This document shows positions 15,003-23,341 of a stretch of DNA of 64,000 nucleotides, piece by piece; the first letter of the stretch is position 1, and each line of letters begins with the position of its first letter. The stretch comes from Methanobacteriota archaeon (lineage in GTDB: Archaea > Halobacteriota > Methanomicrobia > Methanomicrobiales > Methanospirillaceae). The notes below the pieces were generated by a model. The model saw only the letters and a list, made by a program, of their open reading frames with translations. It had not been told where the DNA came from and did not search any database. The stretch covers positions 1 through 64,000 of the forward strand of contig JAKPPV010000010.1 in assembly GCA_029547145.1 (NCBI GenBank), read 5' to 3'. Position numbers and translations under genes: made by a program.

Positions 15003-16403
15003 TCAGGAGAAGGTGAAGGAGTCCATGTCCTGGGAGCCGTACGAGAAGACCTTCAGGGTATGTACCCCCTCCTCCAGGTGAAGCCGGACCGGCCTGGTCG
15101 TCCTGAAGGTGTCCTTGCCCGTCGCAGGCACCCAGACCGTGACACGGTTCTGGGGATGGCATTCATCGATGATCTTGAACCACTGCCCGCCCCTCAGAGA
15201 CGAGACGCGGGCGGTGACCTGGTAGTCCCCCGTCTGCCGGACATCGACCGTGTAGCGGAGCCACTCGCGGAACCGGGTCCCCGTCAGGTAGTACCCCCCG
15301 TCCACGTCATTCTTCCGGATCGCAATGGTCCCGTTCCGGTAGACCGTGTTCGAGACCGGCGCCGGTGTGAAGTACCCGCGCCCGGGACCCCCAAGGTCAT
15401 AATCCTCCGCCTGGATCGTCCCGGGGATCGACCGGATGGCGATGAACGGACGGGAGCCGATGCCGGAATCCGTCGCCGTCCTCGTCACCTTCGGCGTGGG
15501 CGTCTCCCCCGGCGTCGGGGTCCTGTCCGGTTTCGCTGTCTCCCCGGGGGTGGGCGTGTCTGTCGGCCCCGGGCTCGCCCCCTCCGGATGGGCGGCGAGC
15601 GGGAGGTAATCGACGTTCTCGTCGTTGAGCCGGTACGGTGTCGTCAGCAGGCCATCCTTCTGCTCTCCCCCGGCGGAGACGCCGCCCCCGGCAGGGTCGA
15701 GCCAGCAGTTACCACCGATGATCCGACCACCCACGATGTTCGGGCCGTCACGCCGCTCGACGCTCCACCGGTTACCCGGGGTCGCTCCGTTCACGAAGAA
15801 GACGTTCTTTTTGTTCTGGAAGAGGTTGTTCGCGATGGTGTTCGCCGTGGACCCGTAGATCGAGATGCCGGCGATCGCGTTCCCGGTGATCCGGCACCCG
15901 GTGAGCTGGTTCCGGGTCGAGCCCGTCAGGACGACACCGTAGCTGTTCGACGTGAACCGGGAGTCCGATACGGTGGAGTCGGAGGCGGGGTTGAAGGCGA
16001 GTCCGAAGTAGTTGTCGGAGGCGGTCACACCATCAATACGCCCGTTGTGAACCCCCCAGAAGTAGATACCGTAGAAATAGTCCTGCGTCCTGATATTCCG
16101 GATCACGACGTTCGATACCGGCCCGGACCCGTGGACCAGGATTCCCGCCGAGTTCGCGGCGTCGACACCGCGGATCAGGTGCCCCTTTCCGTCGAGGACC
16201 ACGTCGTCGCACCGTATCTCGATACAGACCGGCTCTTTCGAGCCCAGGATATCCTTCGTCAACTCATAGGTCCCGGGTTTCTCGATCACCACGGGGCCCG
16301 TCACTGCAACGGCTGAACCGATCCCGACCAGGCATCCCAGGAGGAGCATGCCGAGCATCAGCCAACGCGCGAGAGCCATCCCTTCTCGTCTGAGGCAGAG
16401 CAT
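15003..16403 (-). CDS. Secreted right-handed beta-helix (NosD-like) protein with C-terminal CBM-like domain
   Basis: A surface protein of about 466 residues. After a signal peptide (LMLGMLLLGCLVGIGSAVA) come repeated parallel beta-helix rungs of the NosD/PbH1 type (GILVHGSGPVSNVVIRNI, TSNSYGVVLTGSTRNQLTG). A Thr/Pro linker with repeated TPTPGET units follows, then a C-terminal beta-sandwich resembling a CBM6/35 carbohydrate-binding domain (IPGTIQAEDYDLGGPG). Such proteins often bind or modify surface glycans. The start is uncertain: ATG at 16403 has GGTTGACG upstream, while the ATG at 16379 has a GGG run directly before it. Confidence 0.8.
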   Translation of the reverse strand: MLCLRREGMALARWLMLGMLLLGCLVGIGSAVAVTGPVVIEKPGTYELTKDILGSKEPVCIEIRCDDVVLDGKGHLIRGVDAANSAGILVHGSGPVSNVVIRNIRTQDYFYGIYFWGVHNGRIDGVTASDNYFGLAFNPASDSTVSDSRFTSNSYGVVLTGSTRNQLTGCRITGNAIAGISIYGSTANTIANNLFQNKKNVFFVNGATPGNRWSVERRDGPNIVGGRIIGGNCWLDPAGGGVSAGGEQKDGLLTTPYRLNDENVDYLPLAAHPEGASPGPTDTPTPGETAKPDRTPTPGETPTPKVTRTATDSGIGSRPFIAIRSIPGTIQAEDYDLGGPGRGYFTPAPVSNTVYRNGTIAIRKNDVDGGYYLTGTRFREWLRYTVDVRQTGDYQVTARVSSLRGGQWFKIIDECHPQNRVTVWVPATGKDTFRTTRPVRLHLEEGVHTLKVFSYGSQDMDSFTFS

Positions 16404-16586
16404 CGTCAACCACGTGCGTTTGTCGATCGCGGGGAGACGGTCGGTGGAGAGAACCGTTCCCACCGCAGATATGAATAACGCAACACAGTATGTGTCATCT
16501 CCCCTAATGAGGGTTACGATATTTTCCGGTCTGGGGGGATACCGTAAAATCGGAAAATTTTCGTTATTTTCAAAAAAAGCGAGACA

Positions 16587-17159
16587 TTATTCCGATTCCG
16601 GGATAGATCCCCCCTCCAGGTGTTGCTCGAGGAGCCGGAGGGCCTCGAGCTCGTCCGGGCCCCCGCACCGCCGCACCACCTGGGCGTGGTGGGTGATCAG
16701 GCGGAAGAGCCAGGGGTCGCGGTTCCGAAGGAACCGTGTCGCATGGACGGTCGCCTCGATCACGGCGCACCGACCCCGGTTGAACGGAAGGCACCGGCTC
16801 GTCAGCACCTCCTCGCCGACGACCGAGAGGCGCACCAGGAGCGCCTCGGGGGTCTCGCGCGCCACCTCTGCCGCACAGGCGACGTACCCGTCGGCCCCGG
16901 AGAGGCGGTCCCACCCAAGTTCGGGGATCGGAACGAACGAGGAGGCGGGGAGGTCGTCGAAGGCGGTGCGGACGAAGAGGATGGGGTCCTGCACCACGTT
17001 CGCCACGAGCCAGCCCTCCTTTGCCACGTTCTCGGCCGTATGGCTCCCCCGGAAGAGGACCGCAGAGAGACCGGCCGGCCGGGCGTGGATCCCGATCGGT
17101 GCCGCGTTCAGCCGCGTGGTTGCGATCACCTCGCTGATGCCCGAACCTAGGAGTCCCAT
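16587..17159 (-). CDS. DUF447-family protein (split-barrel fold)
   Basis: A 190-residue protein starting MGLLGSGISEVIATTRLNAAP. The N-terminal pattern and the HTAENVAKEGWLVANVVQDP segment match the archaeal DUF447 family, which is related to flavin-reductase-like split barrels. Function is not established; FMN binding is possible by analogy. It overlaps the end of the CitG-like gene by 13 bases and is therefore the third gene of the mmp9/CitG-like/DUF447 operon. The frame runs further upstream inside the CitG-like gene, but conservation should start at this ATG. Confidence 0.8.
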   Translation of the reverse strand: MGLLGSGISEVIATTRLNAAPIGIHARPAGLSAVLFRGSHTAENVAKEGWLVANVVQDPILFVRTAFDDLPASSFVPIPELGWDRLSGADGYVACAAEVARETPEALLVRLSVVGEEVLTSRCLPFNRGRCAVIEATVHATRFLRNRDPWLFRLITHHAQVVRRCGGPDELEALRLLEQHLEGGSIPESE

Positions 17160-17977
17160 CTCCACCCCTCCTCGAGCGCCAGGTAGATCGCCCCGATCGT
17201 GATGTCCGCGAGCGAACCGGGGTTGACGTGCTGTGCGATGCACCAGTCGTCGAGGGCTCCGACGGGCTGTCGTCCCTCCAGGACGGCACGGGCACGGGCA
17301 CGCGTCTCCTCGGCGAGGGCCGGACCGTGTTTCTTGACGATGAACGTGTCGATCTCGTCCGCGAGCAGGGAGAGGAAGAGGCGCCTGACCGCCGTCCGGG
17401 GTTCAGGGTCTTCGAGCAGCATCCGGGCTCCGCGGGAGCAGAGGACGAACCCGTTCGTCCACTCCCGCGCCACCATGTCGCGTCCGGACGAGTGGGCCAT
17501 GACGTCCAGCAGGGTCATGCCGCGCCGGCGGAGCAGATCGGCCGACCCCGGGTCGTTCACGTCCAGCTCGTCGGTCTCGTTCACCCTTACGCGCGTCAGG
17601 GCGAAGGCCCGGAAAAAGGCGACCGCATCCTCGACGGTCGTCTCTTCGACCGCCCGCCGGGCCTCCTCGACCCCCCCTCCGTAGACGAGGGGGATGAGGA
17701 GAAGAAAGGCTCCGAAGTGGGTATTCCCCCCGGAATGGCAGGAGGTGGCGCGGACCGCCTGCTCGATCAGGGACCCGAGCCCGGCGCTCCGGGCCTCGGC
17801 CGCCTCGAGAGGAGAACGGGCGGCCAGGCTGGAGACGATGAAGTGCTCGAGGCGTGTCTCGGCGTAGTCGTGGCAGCGGTCCACGTTGCCGGGCTTCGGG
17901 GATGCGAGAACCTCCAGGACCATCGCGAGCTGTGCCCGTTCTGCCCTGGACGCGGGGAAACCACAGAGGCCCGGCAT
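17147..17977 (-). CDS. CitG/MdcB-like triphosphoribosyl-dephospho-CoA synthase homologue
   Basis: A 276-residue, mostly helical protein with the CitG family signatures: SPKPGNVDRCHDYAETRLEHF near the N-terminus and CHSGGNTHFGAFLLLIPL in the middle. CitG transfers ATP-derived ribose phosphate to dephospho-CoA to make the citrate lyase prosthetic group. No citrate lyase genes are seen here and the neighbours are methanogen-specific, so the substrate is probably different. It starts four bases after the mmp9-like stop and overlaps the DUF447 gene. Confidence 0.8.
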   Translation of the reverse strand: MPGLCGFPASRAERAQLAMVLEVLASPKPGNVDRCHDYAETRLEHFIVSSLAARSPLEAAEARSAGLGSLIEQAVRATSCHSGGNTHFGAFLLLIPLVYGGGVEEARRAVEETTVEDAVAFFRAFALTRVRVNETDELDVNDPGSADLLRRRGMTLLDVMAHSSGRDMVAREWTNGFVLCSRGARMLLEDPEPRTAVRRLFLSLLADEIDTFIVKKHGPALAEETRARARAVLEGRQPVGALDDWCIAQHVNPGSLADITIGAIYLALEEGWRWDS

Positions 17978-17981
17978 GGTT

Positions 17982-19109
17982 TCAGCCGACGGGACGCGGT
18001 GGGAAGACCTCGTCCATGATCCGTTCGGAAAGGCGACGCTTGGCCTGCATATAGTCCCGCTTCGTGAGGCCCATCTTCTGGAGGGTGACGTCCCGGAACA
18101 TGCAGGGCGACGAGGCCTTGCAGCACCAGGCCAGCGACCCGAAGCAGGTCTGGGGACCCCCCTCGAGCGGAGTCTCCCGGACCCCGTCCATCTTGAGCGC
18201 GATGTATCGTTCCCGGCTCATCCCGATCTTCTCGAGGGTCGGGATGAGCGGGCACGACTTGACGGGCATGCAGCAGAACGTCAGGGATCGGATATCGCCC
18301 CCCCGGCAGAGCTGTTTCGGGGAGTTGTACCACCCCTGCTCATCCTGGAGGCGGGTGATCGCGGCGTCGAGTCCGGCAAGCGTCCGTTCGTTCGCCCCGC
18401 GCGCGAGCGAGATCAGATCGGCCCCGTGAGAGAACATCTCTCGCATCCGTTCGAAGGTCGTCATCGAATTGTTCGCGATCAGGACGAGAGGAGCGGTGTT
18501 CCGGATCTCCCGGATCTTCGGATAGCCGAAGTCCATCAGGTCGACGTGCAGCACCTCCGCTCCCGCCTCCCAGCACCGCCGGGCCAGCCGGCGGTCGTCT
18601 TCTGCCACGCCGGCCCGGACCTTCACGGAGACCGAGAAGCCCTCGTCCGCGAGCGCGGCGACCATCGCCTCGAGGGCGCCCATGTCCCGGGCGAGTGCCT
18701 CGCCTGCCCCGACGGCGACCATCTCGGGCTGCCGGCAGTGGGCGTCGATCTCGTACACGACCGAGCGACCGAGCGACCGGGCGACCCGGAGCAGCCCCTC
18801 GGGGGAGGAGGCACGCAAGTTGAGGCCGACGACGAGACCGGTGCCGGAGAGGGCATCCACCTCTCGCTTGAGCGCGCTGATCGGATCGTCCACCAGGAAC
18901 TCGGCGCGTCCCCTCGCCGACATCTGCCGGGAGGCCTCGAGCGTGGGCTCGTCGACCGAGTACCCGCCGAGGAAGGTGGCGCCGACGTGCGCAGCGCGGG
19001 CGAGCGTGTACGCGGCATCGACCACCCCCGCCATCGAGGCGAGGGCGATCGGCGTCCTGACCGCGGAGCCGTTGATACGGAGCGAAAAACGCTCATCCTG
19101 CACCGCCAT
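17982..19109 (-). CDS. Methanogenesis marker protein 9-like (Dus-type TIM barrel)
   Basis: The 375-residue product has a dihydrouridine synthase/dihydroorotate dehydrogenase-like TIM barrel (ALASMAGVVDAAYTLARA; HVDLMDFGYPKIREI). A Cys-rich C-terminal domain follows, with CCMPVKSC and CCKASSPCMFRD, a candidate Fe-S cluster region. This combination matches methanogenesis marker 9, a family found in methanogens and their relatives with unknown reaction. The frame is open for 70 more codons upstream, but those cross the divergent cfbA start; the ATG at 19109 (MAVQDERFSL) is preferred. It leads the operon with the CitG-like and DUF447 genes. Confidence 0.85.
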   Translation of the reverse strand: MAVQDERFSLRINGSAVRTPIALASMAGVVDAAYTLARAAHVGATFLGGYSVDEPTLEASRQMSARGRAEFLVDDPISALKREVDALSGTGLVVGLNLRASSPEGLLRVARSLGRSVVYEIDAHCRQPEMVAVGAGEALARDMGALEAMVAALADEGFSVSVKVRAGVAEDDRRLARRCWEAGAEVLHVDLMDFGYPKIREIRNTAPLVLIANNSMTTFERMREMFSHGADLISLARGANERTLAGLDAAITRLQDEQGWYNSPKQLCRGGDIRSLTFCCMPVKSCPLIPTLEKIGMSRERYIALKMDGVRETPLEGGPQTCFGSLAWCCKASSPCMFRDVTLQKMGLTKRDYMQAKRRLSERIMDEVFPPRPVG

Positions 19110-19286
19110 AGAGTGGTATTCATTTTTCGTTGGGACAGATAGGGTTTTGGGATTGTCGTGTCCGCGGGCGGTCATACCGGCCGGATCGGCCGACTTCCCG
19201 GGATCTGCAGGAGGGACCGCGCCGGGGGACGGGCGGTCTGCGCGTCGGTGATATTTTTTTAGGAACGGCGTTGTACTCTGTATTAC
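19110..19286. promoter_or_regulatory. Divergent control region of the mmp9-like and F430 operons
   Basis: This 177-base gap separates two operons, both tied to methanogenesis. A strong TATA-like GATATTTTTTTAG at 19249-19261 faces cfbA and lies about 26-38 bases before its ATG, which has no Shine-Dalgarno; a very short leader is likely. On the other side an A-rich stretch (about 19124-19136) precedes the mmp9-like ATG, also without a ribosome site. Confidence 0.6.
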
Positions 19287-19688
19287 ATGAGCAGGTATGG
19301 CATGCTCCTCGTGGGCCACGGATCAAAACTTCCCTATAACAAGGAACTGATCGTCGAGACCGGTCGCATGATCCAGGAGCGCTCCGACGATTTCGTCGTT
19401 CGCTGCGGGTTCATGTCGATGAACGAGCCCTCGGTCGAGGAGCAGCTGGAGGCGTTCAGGACTGAGGCGATCGAGGCCCTCGCCGTGGTCCCGCTCTTCC
19501 TCGCCCGCGGCGTTCATATCGAGAAGGACATCCCGGCCCTGATCGGGCTCGCCGAAGGGCAGAAGAAGGGGACGTTCGAGACCGCCCGCGGACCGGTACC
19601 GCTCGTCTACGCCGACCCGATCGGGGTCGACCCCCTGCTCGCCGAGCTGATGCTCAAGAACGCCACGACCGCGCTGTCGCTGATCTAG
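19287..19688 (+). CDS. cfbA: Sirohydrochlorin nickel chelatase (CfbA/CbiX-small)
   Basis: A 133-residue short-form class II chelatase that inserts nickel into sirohydrochlorin, the first step from sirohydrochlorin to coenzyme F430 (the family can also insert cobalt). Metal-binding histidines are visible in LLVGHGSK (His11) and LARGVHIEKD (His77). The half-size length is typical of archaeal enzymes that act as homodimers. It is the first gene of the cluster cfbA, cfbE, cfbD, cfbB. Confidence 0.93.
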   Translation: MSRYGMLLVGHGSKLPYNKELIVETGRMIQERSDDFVVRCGFMSMNEPSVEEQLEAFRTEAIEALAVVPLFLARGVHIEKDIPALIGLAEGQKKGTFETARGPVPLVYADPIGVDPLLAELMLKNATTALSLI

Positions 19689-19694
19689 TCCCGC

Positions 19695-20897
19695 ATGGAT
19701 TTCCTGGTGCTCGATACCATTCATGGGGGAGACCTGCTCGGAGACGAGCTCCGCCTCCGCGGACACCGTGTCGAGACCGTGGATGTGTATCGTGGCACGG
19801 GCCCATGGCCCGATCCGGACGAATTCGATCGCGTGGTGGCGCCGGTCCACCTGGACCCGGACCATCCCCTCCTGGAGGGAGCCGGAGAACGGCTCCTCAC
19901 GCATCACGAGGCGGTCGGCCTCTGCCTTGCCGATCACCGTCCCCGGTGCCTGGTCGAGGTGACCGGGGCACGCGGGAAGACCACGACTGCCTTCGCCCTT
20001 GCTGCCGCGCTGGAGGGGAGGGGGATCCTCCATACCACGGCGGGCACCTTCGTCTTCCCGGAGCGCCGGCGGATCTGGCGGCGATCGATCACCCCCGCAT
20101 CGATCCTGCCAGCGGCACGGGCCGCCGCCGCCATCGGCGGATGGTGCGTGGCGGAGGAGTCGCTCGGGGTCACCGGGGCGGGAGACCTGGCGGTGCTGAC
20201 ATCGATGGACGACTATCCCTGCGCTGCAAAGAAGCGCTCGGCCCTTGCCGTGAAGCTCGGGACGTGCCGCCGCGCCCCGCGCCTCCTGTTGCCCGCGGGG
20301 ACGGACCCCCTCCCGGGACATCCGGACGTCATTTCGGCCGATCGGGTGGCCCGGGTCACCGGCGGGACGATCGAGACCCCCTCCGGCATCGTGACCACAC
20401 CGCTCCTCGCGCATGCCGGGTACCGGAATGCGCTGCAGATCGCGGCCGCTGCGGCCGTCCTGCTCGGAGGACGCCCCTCGCGCCTGGCGACGATGGAGGC
20501 GATCCCCGGACGGTTGTCGGTCGGAACCGAGGATGGACGCGTCCTGGTGGACGATGCGAACAGCGGAACCAACCGGGCGACCGCGGTCGAGGCCGCCCGC
20601 CTGGCGCGTGCGCTCGACCCGGGCCCGGAGCTGGCGCTCGTCGTCGGTGAGGAGTTCCGGGCGGTCTGCGAGGGGTTCTCCCCGGAGGAGGTAGCCGCCG
20701 CGATCGAGGAGGCGGCCCCTGCGATGGCCGTACTCGTGGGACCCCCGGCGTTCCGGGCCGCCGTGAGCGCCCGCCTCGCTGCCACCCCCTGGCAGGGCCG
20801 CGTGCGGGAGGCGTCCACCCTCGCAGAGGGGCGTGTGGCGGCCCGGGACGGGCACGGGGGCGGACCGATCGTCCTGGCTGTCAAGACATGGAGATAG
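19695..20897 (+). CDS. cfbE: Coenzyme F430 synthetase (Mur ligase family)
   Basis: A 400-residue Mur-ligase-type enzyme. CfbE joins the propionate chain of 15,17(3)-seco-F430 to close the last ring of F430 at the cost of ATP. The P-loop VTGARGKTTT (about 89-97) and the C-terminal ligase region (LVDDANSGTNRATAVEAARL) are visible. It starts six bases after cfbA, and cfbD starts three bases after it. The sequence is diverged from peptidoglycan Mur enzymes, but the F430 context makes the call firm. Confidence 0.9.
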   Translation: MDFLVLDTIHGGDLLGDELRLRGHRVETVDVYRGTGPWPDPDEFDRVVAPVHLDPDHPLLEGAGERLLTHHEAVGLCLADHRPRCLVEVTGARGKTTTAFALAAALEGRGILHTTAGTFVFPERRRIWRRSITPASILPAARAAAAIGGWCVAEESLGVTGAGDLAVLTSMDDYPCAAKKRSALAVKLGTCRRAPRLLLPAGTDPLPGHPDVISADRVARVTGGTIETPSGIVTTPLLAHAGYRNALQIAAAAAVLLGGRPSRLATMEAIPGRLSVGTEDGRVLVDDANSGTNRATAVEAARLARALDPGPELALVVGEEFRAVCEGFSPEEVAAAIEEAAPAMAVLVGPPAFRAAVSARLAATPWQGRVREASTLAEGRVAARDGHGGGPIVLAVKTWR

Positions 20898-20900
20898 AGA

Positions 20901-21959
20901 ATGAGATACATACAGCCCAGACCGAGCTCGATCGTCGCCGCCCTGTACACGGCGCGCGACCTCGAGGTGGACGTCGCCGTCCTGCACGGACCGTCCGGCT
21001 GCTCGTTCAAGCACGCCCGTCTCCTCGAGGAGGACGGCATGCGGGTCCTGACGACGTCGCTCGGCGAGAACGAGTTCATCTTCGGGGGCGAGCAGCGGCT
21101 CGAAGAGGTGCTTCGCGAGGCGGAGAGGGCCTTTGCCCCGCGACGTATGGCGGTGATCGGGACCTGCGTCGCGATGATCATCGGCGAGGACCTGAGCCAG
21201 GCGATCCACGCGGTAAAGACCCCGACGATCGCCGTCGATATCCATGCCGGGTTCTCCGAGAACATCGACGGGGTGATCGCCACCCTCCAGGCTGCCACCG
21301 ATGCGGGCTGGATCGGGGAGGAGGAGCTCGGGCGGCAGCGCAGGCTGCTCGAGGCCGCAAACGAGGTGGAGCGCCTCCGGGGGGCGGCGAGTCGGCCGTA
21401 CATCGAACCGGACCGTGGCGATCTCAAGCACCTTGCGGCCGCAAGGCTCATCGAACTCGCCCGCGCCGGAGCGAAGGGTATCGCGGTGATGAACGCGAAG
21501 AAGGAGACCGCGTACATGTTCGCCGACGCGCTCGCCGCGCTGCACGAGGTCGCGCCGGAGGCCCCGGTCCGCTACCTCGCGAACCTCGAGGAGCGGGGCC
21601 TGCCGAAGGTCCGGCGAGACGCCCGGCGGATCGCCGAAGGGCTCGCCGGGCGGGGAGTCCCCGTGGAGGCGGTCGGGTCGCTCGACGAGTACGGCGCCCT
21701 GGGAGACCGTCTCGGAGAGGAGATCCGCGGGAGTGGCGCGGACTATGCCCTGCTCGCGGGGGTGCCGCACGCGATCCCCTCCGAGTACACGGAGGGGATC
21801 GAGGTGATCTCGATCACGAACGGGCCCCGCCAGGTCGCCCCGCTGCGGGAGCTCGGACACCGGTACGTGCTGGTCGAGGTCGACCTGCACCCCCGGACCC
21901 TCGGGGTCCGCGCGATCGTGGAGGGGGAGTTCGGAGCGGTGCTCCGGAGTCTGGCATGA
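20901..21959 (+). CDS. cfbD: Ni-sirohydrochlorin a,c-diamide reductive cyclase, catalytic subunit (NifD-like)
   Basis: A 352-residue nitrogenase-like protein. With the NifH-like CfbC it reduces Ni-sirohydrochlorin a,c-diamide by six electrons and forms a lactam ring. Candidate Fe-S ligands are visible: Cys34 in LHGPSGCSFKHAR and Cys89 in AVIGTCVAMIIGEDL. CfbD is a homodimer in characterised systems, so a NifK-like partner is not expected. Its TGA overlaps the cfbB ATG. The reductase partner cfbC is not in this window. Confidence 0.93.
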   Translation: MRYIQPRPSSIVAALYTARDLEVDVAVLHGPSGCSFKHARLLEEDGMRVLTTSLGENEFIFGGEQRLEEVLREAERAFAPRRMAVIGTCVAMIIGEDLSQAIHAVKTPTIAVDIHAGFSENIDGVIATLQAATDAGWIGEEELGRQRRLLEAANEVERLRGAASRPYIEPDRGDLKHLAAARLIELARAGAKGIAVMNAKKETAYMFADALAALHEVAPEAPVRYLANLEERGLPKVRRDARRIAEGLAGRGVPVEAVGSLDEYGALGDRLGEEIRGSGADYALLAGVPHAIPSEYTEGIEVISITNGPRQVAPLRELGHRYVLVEVDLHPRTLGVRAIVEGEFGAVLRSLA

Positions 21960-23341
21960 AGGGGGTCCTGATCTCGGGGGACCGCTCGGGGTGCGGCAAG
22001 ACCTCGGTCACCCTTGCACTCTCCGCACTCCTCGCCAGGGACCGGGTGGTCCAGACCTTCAAGGTCGGGATGGACTACATCGATCCCTCCTACCTCACGG
22101 CAGTGACCGGGCGTCCCTGCCGGAACCTGGACGCGTTCGTCCTCTCCCCGGAGGAGAACCGGGAGATCTTCCGGGCAGCAAACCGTGGGGCCGGGATCGC
22201 GATCGTCGAGGGGGTCCGGGGTCTCTACGAGGGGGCCGAGGCGATCGGCGATGCCGGCAGCACGGCGGAGATTGCGAAGCTCCTGGACCTCCCCGTCGTC
22301 TTGGTCGTGAACGCCCGCTCGGTGACCCGGTCTGCGGCAGCGCTGATCCGGGGATTCCAGGCCTTCGACCCCGCGGTCCGGATCGCCGGAGTGATCCTCA
22401 ACAACGTCTCGGGCCCTTCCCACCGCGAGAAGGCGACCCGTGCAATCGAGCACTTCTGCCGCGTCCCGGTGCTCGGTGCGGTGCCACCGCTCGAGGAGAT
22501 GCAGCTGGCCATGCGCCATCTCGGGCTGGTCCCGTTCCGCGAAGGGAGCGAGATGGCCGGCTTCCGGGAGCGGGTCGGGCTCGTCACCCGCCTGATCGGG
22601 GAGTACGTACCCCCAAGGGAGCTGCTCGCGGTCGCCCGGGAGCTCCCCGAGCCGGGCGATGCCCCCCTCCTGCCCGAACGGGACGGGAGTCCGGACGTCC
22701 AGATCGGGCTCGCCCACGACGAGGCGTTCAACTTCTATTATGCCGACCTGGAGGAGGTCCTGGCCTCCGCGGGGGCCGGTGTCGTCCGCTTCAGCCCCTG
22801 CCATGACCGGCTCCCCGATGCCGACGGATACATACTGGGCGGCGGGTACCCCGAGATCCACGCCGCCCGCCTCGAGGAGAACGGCGCCTGCCGGGAGGGG
22901 CTCCGGGAGGCGGCCCGGAACGGAGTCCCGGTCTACGGGGAGTGCGGTGGCCTGATCTACCTGACGGACCGGATCCGGCTCGCCGCCGGATGGCGTGGCG
23001 CGCCGGAGGAGGGGGTCTTCGACCTCGCGGGGATCCTTCCCGGCGAGGCGAGGATGCCGGCCCGTCGGGTCGTCACCTACGTCCAGGGCGAGGCGTTCGA
23101 TCCATCGCCCATGGGGGCGGGGTCCTTTAAGGGGCACTCGTTCCATTACTCCGGTGTCGAGCTCGAACCGGGGACGCGGTACGCCTACACCCTCGTCCGC
23201 GGCGTCGGCATCGACGGGATGCGTGACGGCGCCGTCGCCGGCAACACGCTGGGTACCTACTGTCATGTTCACCCGGTCGGCTCCCGCAGGATGTTCGGCA
23301 CCTTCGTCGAACGGTGCCGGGCGGCACGGAACCGAGCGTAA
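21956..23341 (+). CDS. cfbB: Ni-sirohydrochlorin a,c-diamide synthase (CbiA-type)
   Basis: A 461-residue amidotransferase that amidates the a and c acetate side chains of Ni-sirohydrochlorin using glutamine and ATP. The N-terminal P-loop (ISGDRSGCGKTSVT, residues 6-19) and the glutamine amidotransferase site (YGECGGLIYL, Cys about 330; GTYCHVHP, His about 437) are visible. The start is the ATG at 21956, overlapping the cfbD stop as ATGA; the same frame is open far upstream only as a shadow of cfbD. Confidence 0.93.
   Translation: MKGVLISGDRSGCGKTSVTLALSALLARDRVVQTFKVGMDYIDPSYLTAVTGRPCRNLDAFVLSPEENREIFRAANRGAGIAIVEGVRGLYEGAEAIGDAGSTAEIAKLLDLPVVLVVNARSVTRSAAALIRGFQAFDPAVRIAGVILNNVSGPSHREKATRAIEHFCRVPVLGAVPPLEEMQLAMRHLGLVPFREGSEMAGFRERVGLVTRLIGEYVPPRELLAVARELPEPGDAPLLPERDGSPDVQIGLAHDEAFNFYYADLEEVLASAGAGVVRFSPCHDRLPDADGYILGGGYPEIHAARLEENGACREGLREAARNGVPVYGECGGLIYLTDRIRLAAGWRGAPEEGVFDLAGILPGEARMPARRVVTYVQGEAFDPSPMGAGSFKGHSFHYSGVELEPGTRYAYTLVRGVGIDGMRDGAVAGNTLGTYCHVHPVGSRRMFGTFVERCRAARNRA

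Follow-up and report, generated by a model that had tools for sequence, protein, structure and literature searches.

Tetrahydromethanopterin (H4MPT) is the one-carbon carrier of methanogens, methane oxidisers, Archaeoglobus and aerobic methylotrophs, and through the work of White and of van Beelen methanopterin is known to carry an alpha-linked ribose 5-phosphate on its ribitol chain, esterified to 2-hydroxyglutarate. CitG forms an alpha-ribosyl linkage from ATP. About seven methanopterin genes stood uncharacterised in a 2011 count (PMC3087415), and the dephosphorylated form of Methylorubrum, dH4MPT, lacks both the phosphate and the hydroxyglutarate (PMC8141765). We compared four described systems, namely the CitG/MdcB family (ATP:dephospho-CoA triphosphoribosyl transferases, PF01874), the archaeal tRNA dihydrouridine synthase (Dus) subfamily with NxHC(K/R) and HxD motifs (COG0042; PMC3674756), the methylotroph H4MPT island (mch-orf5-orf7-fae and orf19-orf20-afpA-orf21-orf22; PMC3615186) and the haloarchaeal operons of CofD (2-phospho-L-lactate transferase), with a locus in the first 64,000 nucleotides of contig JAKPPV010000010.1 from a methanogen of the Methanospirillaceae, the stretch hereafter called the window. 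This locus is a minus-strand operon of three genes, mmp9, a citG-like gene and a DUF447 gene, with a 4-nt gap between the first two and a 13-nt overlap between the last two. Our analysis indicates that the CitG-like and DUF447 proteins very probably belong to H4MPT biosynthesis.

The CitG-like protein matched PF01874 over its full length (residues 12–266; 224 bits, cut-off 27) and PDB entry 3H9P (E=1.6e-32), and has in common with citrate-lyase CitG of E. coli the core residues K28 P29 G30, N85 T86 G89, D210 and D258, which correspond to the K-P-G and N-T-x-x-G motifs and the two aspartates of the CitG/MdcB family. It differs from that family in scoring only 29.7 bits against the citrate-lyase CitG equivalog TIGR03125 (cut-off 272.3), in its linkage to MptG, and in the residues N31, V75 and N252, a class signature found alike in archaea and in the bacterial H4MPT cassettes described below. 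In a quick tree, to be read with caution because long branches meet, this H4MPT-type CitG formed a clade separate from the citrate/malonate CitG/MdcB proteins. No citX/citDEF, mdc or citX/mdcG-type partner was recognised beside the window gene, unlike in E. coli, and the bacterial citG and mdcB genes that we looked at adjoin lyase or decarboxylase genes; no lyase gene was recognised next to citG in the window, the whole genome not having been searched for lyases. The implication of a preliminary description of this DNA, that its CitG-family enzyme does not serve a citrate or malonate lyase, was supported by the low equivalog score. If the protein were a genuine CitG, supplying triphosphoribosyl-dephospho-CoA to some acyl-carrier protein not yet recognised, the full-length family match and the conserved core would be explained, but with such an equivalog score, a clade of its own and no partner gene in the operon we consider this extremely improbable.

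Profile searches of 100 genomes of the window's phylum, whose lineage labels (haloarchaea-like, Archaeoglobi-like) were inferred from gene content and size, found CitG in 95, DUF447 in 96, MptG (ribofuranosylaminobenzene 5'-phosphate [RFAP] synthase) in 97 and the marker-9 domain of Mmp9 in 45, in 40 of them above cut-off. Of the 93 genomes holding both, 81 have citG and DUF447 side by side, with strand and order conserved, and these pairs were spread across Halobacteriota, Archaeoglobi-like and haloarchaeal genomes included; the genomes with only one of the two were all less than 94% complete. Together with the finding that mmp9 immediately precedes citG wherever it is full-length (40 of 40 genomes), this places the arrangement far beyond chance. 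Two haloarchaea-like genomes (G008 and G049, 99% complete) lacked MptG, CitG and DUF447 together; they represent one genus and were counted as one loss. Among the control genomes, Methanocaldococcus jannaschii, Methanosarcina acetivorans, Haloferax volcanii and Sulfolobus acidocaldarius had CitG, DUF447 and MptG, E. coli had CitG only, and mmp9 was confined to the two methanogens. Thus, in the co-occurrence mapping that the preliminary description had proposed, CitG and DUF447 travelled with MptG, in non-methanogens as well, and were absent where the pathway is absent, with exceptions that are given below, and mmp9 followed them more loosely. A weak MptG paralogue was also seen about 2 kb from DUF447 in three genomes (G012, G056 and G071).

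The neighbouring genes of other archaeal operons point in the same direction. In G001 the order is cofD-mmp9-citG-DUF447-DmrX, beyond which come a PHP-domain gene of opposite orientation and a dihydropteroate-synthase (DHPS)-like gene, with matches to TIGR02700 (dihydromethanopterin reductase; 286 bits, cut-off 251) and, on the DHPS-like gene, to TIGR00284 (285 bits); shorter versions are mmp9-citG-DUF447-DmrX in G050 and citG-DUF447-DmrX-DHPS-like in G010. We take DUF447 (MM1853) and DmrX (MM1854) to be adjacent in M. mazei too, an adjacency left unconfirmed in two Methanosarcina-like loci. A PHP-domain gene pointing the other way is found repeatedly next to DUF447 or DmrX (locus L233, 9897-10562; L238, 9742-10356; G010, G020 and G050) and might encode a phosphoesterase that acts in this pathway.

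In addition, cofD is a frequent neighbour: it adjoins the Dus, CitG or DUF447 genes in the haloarchaeal loci, whose order is cofD-Dus-citG-DUF447, and in G001, G017 and G019, and lies nearby in G006, with cofD genes scoring over cut-off (326.6 and 374 bits). One of these loci (L238 of G019) combines cofE-cofD-citG-DUF447 with McrA (905 bits), MptG and Mch in a genome without mmp9. From this neighbourhood one might argue that CitG-like and DUF447 act on coenzyme F420, as a modified or ribosylated form. However, cofD was absent both from the surroundings of the operon in the window and from the bacterial cassettes listed below, and the cofD-bearing plasmids belong mostly to other genera (Sinorhizobium 12 of 39, Leisingera 10 of 39), so that we judge a role in F420 quite improbable.

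Bacteria provided a further view of the linkage. Among 72,556 plasmid records, H4MPT-type CitG occurred in 35 and DUF447 in the identical 35, records that represent about ten genera and cannot be treated as independent; all of them encoded MptG at 39% identity or more, and nine other MptG-family matches reached at most about 33%. The cassettes of Aquabacterium olei (L092), Phyllobacterium (L093) and Thiodictyon (L253) contain mch, mtdB and RimK-type ligase genes, with citG placed after mch and the ligase gene. The fuller ones add fae, fhc, mfnB and a DHPS-like gene; L092 and L093, which hold all of these together with mptG, mtdB and DUF447, look like complete H4MPT/methylofuran cassettes, and protein comparison identified nearly the same gene set in the unannotated records of Paraburkholderia (L094) and Rhizobium (L096). 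The order mch-RimK ligase-CitG-fae in L093 and L253, and the order flavoprotein, DUF6513, DUF447 in L092 and L093, agree with the methylotroph island (PMC3615186), whereas in methanogens the citG-DUF447 pair sits with mmp9 and sometimes with DmrX and cofD. Given this match in gene order, orf7 of the island is probably CitG-like and orf20 probably DUF447; no stated function for either was found in the accessible open-access literature.

Bacterial citG follows the methylofuran RimK-type ligase gene, MyfB, and in L092 the neighbour of DUF447 is mfnB. Because of the first of these, a role of CitG-like and DUF447 in the methanofuran/methylofuran branch rather than in H4MPT stays compatible with the bacterial data taken alone. 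The archaeal data make it improbable, since the operons pair CitG-DUF447 with DmrX and the DHPS-like gene, and since CitG, DUF447 and MptG are all present in Haloferax and Sulfolobus, which to our knowledge have no methanofuran.

The preliminary description had suggested instead that the three genes make an undescribed nucleotide-like cofactor or modification used in methanogenesis. Methanogens that have Mcr and lack the H4MPT pathway separate the two possibilities: under a role in H4MPT they should lack the genes, and under a role in methanogenesis they should keep them. We therefore turned to 25 Thermoplasmatota genomes found through a 16S pattern, several of which are metagenome bins of unknown completeness. 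McrA was found in 16 of them (in two as fragments only), and none of the 25 had Mch, CitG, mmp9 or MptG above cut-off; DUF447 exceeded its cut-off in one, a genome without McrA. In a halophilic Thermoplasmatota genome (Candidatus Halarchaeoplasma; L216, G120), we observed a DUF447 match of 47 bits and found neither CitG nor MptG. A cofactor made by Mmp9, CitG and DUF447 for methanogenesis only would fit the constant tie between full mmp9 and citG (40 of 40 genomes) and the F430 genes next door in the window's order. Against it stand the CitG-DUF447 pair without mmp9 in 40 genomes, Dus-CitG-DUF447 in haloarchaea, CitG and DUF447 in bacterial H4MPT cassettes, and the Mcr-bearing Thermoplasmatota without mmp9, CitG or DUF447 over cut-off, and we regard it as very unlikely. 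What survives of the suggestion is cofactor synthesis, the cofactor being most likely the known H4MPT; neither an undescribed cofactor nor one tied to methanogenesis was supported, in view of these Thermoplasmatota, which lack Mch, and of the occurrence of CitG and DUF447 in Archaeoglobi-like, haloarchaeal, Haloferax and Sulfolobus genomes and in bacterial H4MPT/methylofuran cassettes. Likewise, of the idea that the three families act together, a common pathway for CitG and DUF447 was well supported, and for a place of mmp9 in that H4MPT pathway the support is weak.

The link to the pathway is well supported by the protein families, the conserved operon, joint presence and joint absence with MptG, the H4MPT cassettes and the adjacency of DmrX; which reactions take place, from which donor and in what sequence, and what mmp9 does, we infer. 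Subtracting from the Aquabacterium cassette the methylofuran genes (as assigned in PMC8141765), MptG for RFAP synthesis, the DHPS-like gene for the pterin coupling and the reductase for the last reduction leaves CitG and DUF447 as the chief families with no step assigned. This elimination, with the agreement in linkage and chemistry, makes them the best candidates for ribosylation and reductive ring opening, respectively. By analogy with CitG, which acts on the 2'-hydroxyl of dephospho-CoA, the CitG-like protein is probably the enzyme of the second-ribose step: it would displace adenine from ATP, or pyrophosphate from phosphoribosyl pyrophosphate (PRPP), and transfer an alpha-ribosyl 5-(tri)phosphate group to the ribitol chain at its 5-hydroxyl. 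The DUF447 protein matched PF04289 (DUF447_N, 86.1 bits) and PF20766 (DUF447_C, 57.6 bits), both above cut-off, and has four PDB homologues (2NR4, 2IML, 2PTF and 3B5M), which are presumably FMN-bound split barrels. As a member of this presumably flavin-binding family, it can tentatively be proposed as the reductase that would yield ribitol by opening the first ribofuranose in the RFAP product. Mmp9 would be a Dus-family reductase of archaeal type that bears a Cys-rich domain and that methanogens encode in this operon.

If the analogy extends further, methanopterin might be built by the two-step logic that also yields the citrate lyase prosthetic group. In a first step, the CitG-like enzyme would join the ribose triphosphate of ATP in alpha configuration to the hydroxyl on the pterin's ribitol; in a second, the triphosphate would serve as the activated group, and a hydroxyl of 2-hydroxyglutarate would displace pyrophosphate from it and give the phosphodiester, as serine does in CitX. 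In bacteria the phosphates would be stripped instead, giving dH4MPT without hydroxyglutaryl phosphate. A corollary of MptG, CitG and DUF447 being kept together would be a methanopterin-like compound in haloarchaea. We put forward this scheme and its corollary as a speculation that is rather unlikely to be right.

Several observations count against the assignment to H4MPT or against particular steps of it, in addition to the cofD and MyfB neighbourhoods already mentioned. Early literature on the pathway assumed PRPP rather than ATP as the donor. Three methanogens of the window's order with CitG and DUF447 (G046, G076 and G086) have only a weak MptG paralogue (71–80 bits), and a fourth (G081) has no MptG; the Dus barrel is kept in G008 and G049, both of which lack citG, DUF447 and mptG. 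Haloarchaea, which hold CitG, DUF447 and an MptG-like protein, are regarded as folate users and their MptG homologue has been doubted as a maker of RFAP (PMC8305020). In the open-access literature, we found no mutant data or assay for CitG-like or DUF447 proteins, and no paper joining CitG with methanopterin or tetrahydromethanopterin. Taking all this into account, the reading of CitG-like and DUF447 as H4MPT enzymes with the proposed steps is, as a whole, the best explanation and a reasonably probable one.

Mmp9 requires separate consideration. It exceeded the cut-off of TIGR03277 (methanogenesis marker 9; 151.9 bits, cut-off 96.2) and retains in its barrel the catalytic Cys and Lys motifs of Dus (NAHCRQ-type and SVKxRAG), which agrees with the earlier description of a Dus-type barrel joined to a Cys-rich domain. 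The barrel shares the AHCRQ, KxR and HxD motifs with the archaeal Dus subfamily, and differs from it in falling under the cut-off of TIGR00736 (MJ0144-type archaeal Dus-like; 117.5 bits, cut-off 218.7) and in bearing the additional eight-cysteine domain; PF01207 gave 24 bits against it, and a PDB sequence search with Mmp9 returned weak TIM-barrel matches only. A single-sequence structure prediction was discarded for its low confidence (predicted local distance difference test, pLDDT, 37). All eight cysteines of the marker-9 motif, C-x9/10-CC-x5-C ... C-x6-CC-x5-C, were invariant in 38 distinct sequences and, on this pattern, probably form two metal sites.

The distribution of the two parts of Mmp9 is patchy. 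The barrel without the Cys-rich domain stands beside CitG-DUF447 in 12 haloarchaea-like genomes, for example directly upstream of citG-DUF447 in L235 (9866-10699), L236 (7115-8077) and L237 (9249-10025), usually preceded by cofD, and about 2 kb from the pair in L095 (3140-3901). It is unlinked to CitG-DUF447 in 7 of the 10 Archaeoglobi-like genomes tested (family f9), and missing from anaerobic methanotroph (ANME)-like and other CitG-DUF447 lineages and from the bacterial plasmids. The Cys-rich domain occurs alone, in frames of 155-202 residues, in G007, G016, G023 and G068, genomes with McrA or McrA-like genes, and in G039 (L241, 9359-10312; family f21) the barrel is degenerate, shrunken and devoid of its catalytic Cys next to an intact Cys-rich domain. 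Loss of mmp9 together with CitG and DUF447 was rejected, because the barrel persists in G008 and G049. From this distribution, mmp9 is coupled to the operon yet dispensable for CitG-DUF447 function, and its substrate could be a tRNA or a cofactor. Mmp9 might, compatibly with any reading of the other two genes, be an ordinary archaeal tRNA dihydrouridine synthase whose place in the operon is incidental. The catalytic and subfamily motifs (PMC3674756) and the persistence of the barrel without CitG and DUF447 would suit such an enzyme; a place immediately before citG in every genome with full mmp9, as well as in the 12 haloarchaea, a barrel decayed in G039 with its Cys-rich domain kept and Cys-rich domains standing alone would not, and we hold this view of Mmp9 to be a serious but doubtful one.

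Features of the operon and of the adjoining coenzyme F430 genes in the window
Feature	Position	Strand	Description
mmp9	17982-19109	-	375 aa; Dus-type barrel (residues ~26-240) and Cys-rich marker-9 domain (259-366)
mmp9 marker-9 Cys-rich domain	18012-18335	-	profile match in genome search; eight invariant cysteines
citG-like	17147-17977	-	276 aa; PF01874 224 bits; proposed alpha-(tri)phosphoribosyl transferase of H4MPT biosynthesis
DUF447	16587-17159	-	190 aa; PF04289 and PF20766; best start ATG at 17159; proposed flavoprotein reductase
Divergent intergenic region mmp9/cfbA	19110-19286	.	177 bp; sequence
cfbA, sirohydrochlorin nickelochelatase	19287-19688	+	NF033198 150.5 bits, cut-off 120
cfbE, coenzyme F430 synthase	19695-20897	+	NF033197 275.5 bits, cut-off 250
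cfbD, reductive cyclase catalytic subunit	20901-21959	+	TIGR03282 488.1 bits, cut-off 268.4
Open frame with cfbB in its 3' part (residues 360-808)	20888-23341	+	NF033195 571.6 bits, cut-off 560

As first described, the overlapping or nearly touching genes of the operon diverge from the cfb genes of F430 synthesis, which run in the order cfbA-E-D-B. All 17 other genomes of the window's order have mmp9 and cfbA diverging, against 0 of 12 more distant mmp9 genomes examined; the divergence is therefore a trait of this order with no functional rule behind it. Downstream of DUF447 (15003-16463), a NosD/beta-helix protein with a carbohydrate-binding module is probably a surface protein without relation to the operon.

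If true, the assignment of CitG-like and DUF447 to H4MPT synthesis would fill two gaps in this pathway and correct the annotation as triphosphoribosyl-dephospho-CoA synthase in many archaeal and methylotroph genomes. It would also offer new targets for methane inhibition and a more complete gene set for transferring the pathway to other hosts, and it would raise the question of what the MptG-CitG-DUF447 trio produces in haloarchaea and Sulfolobus.

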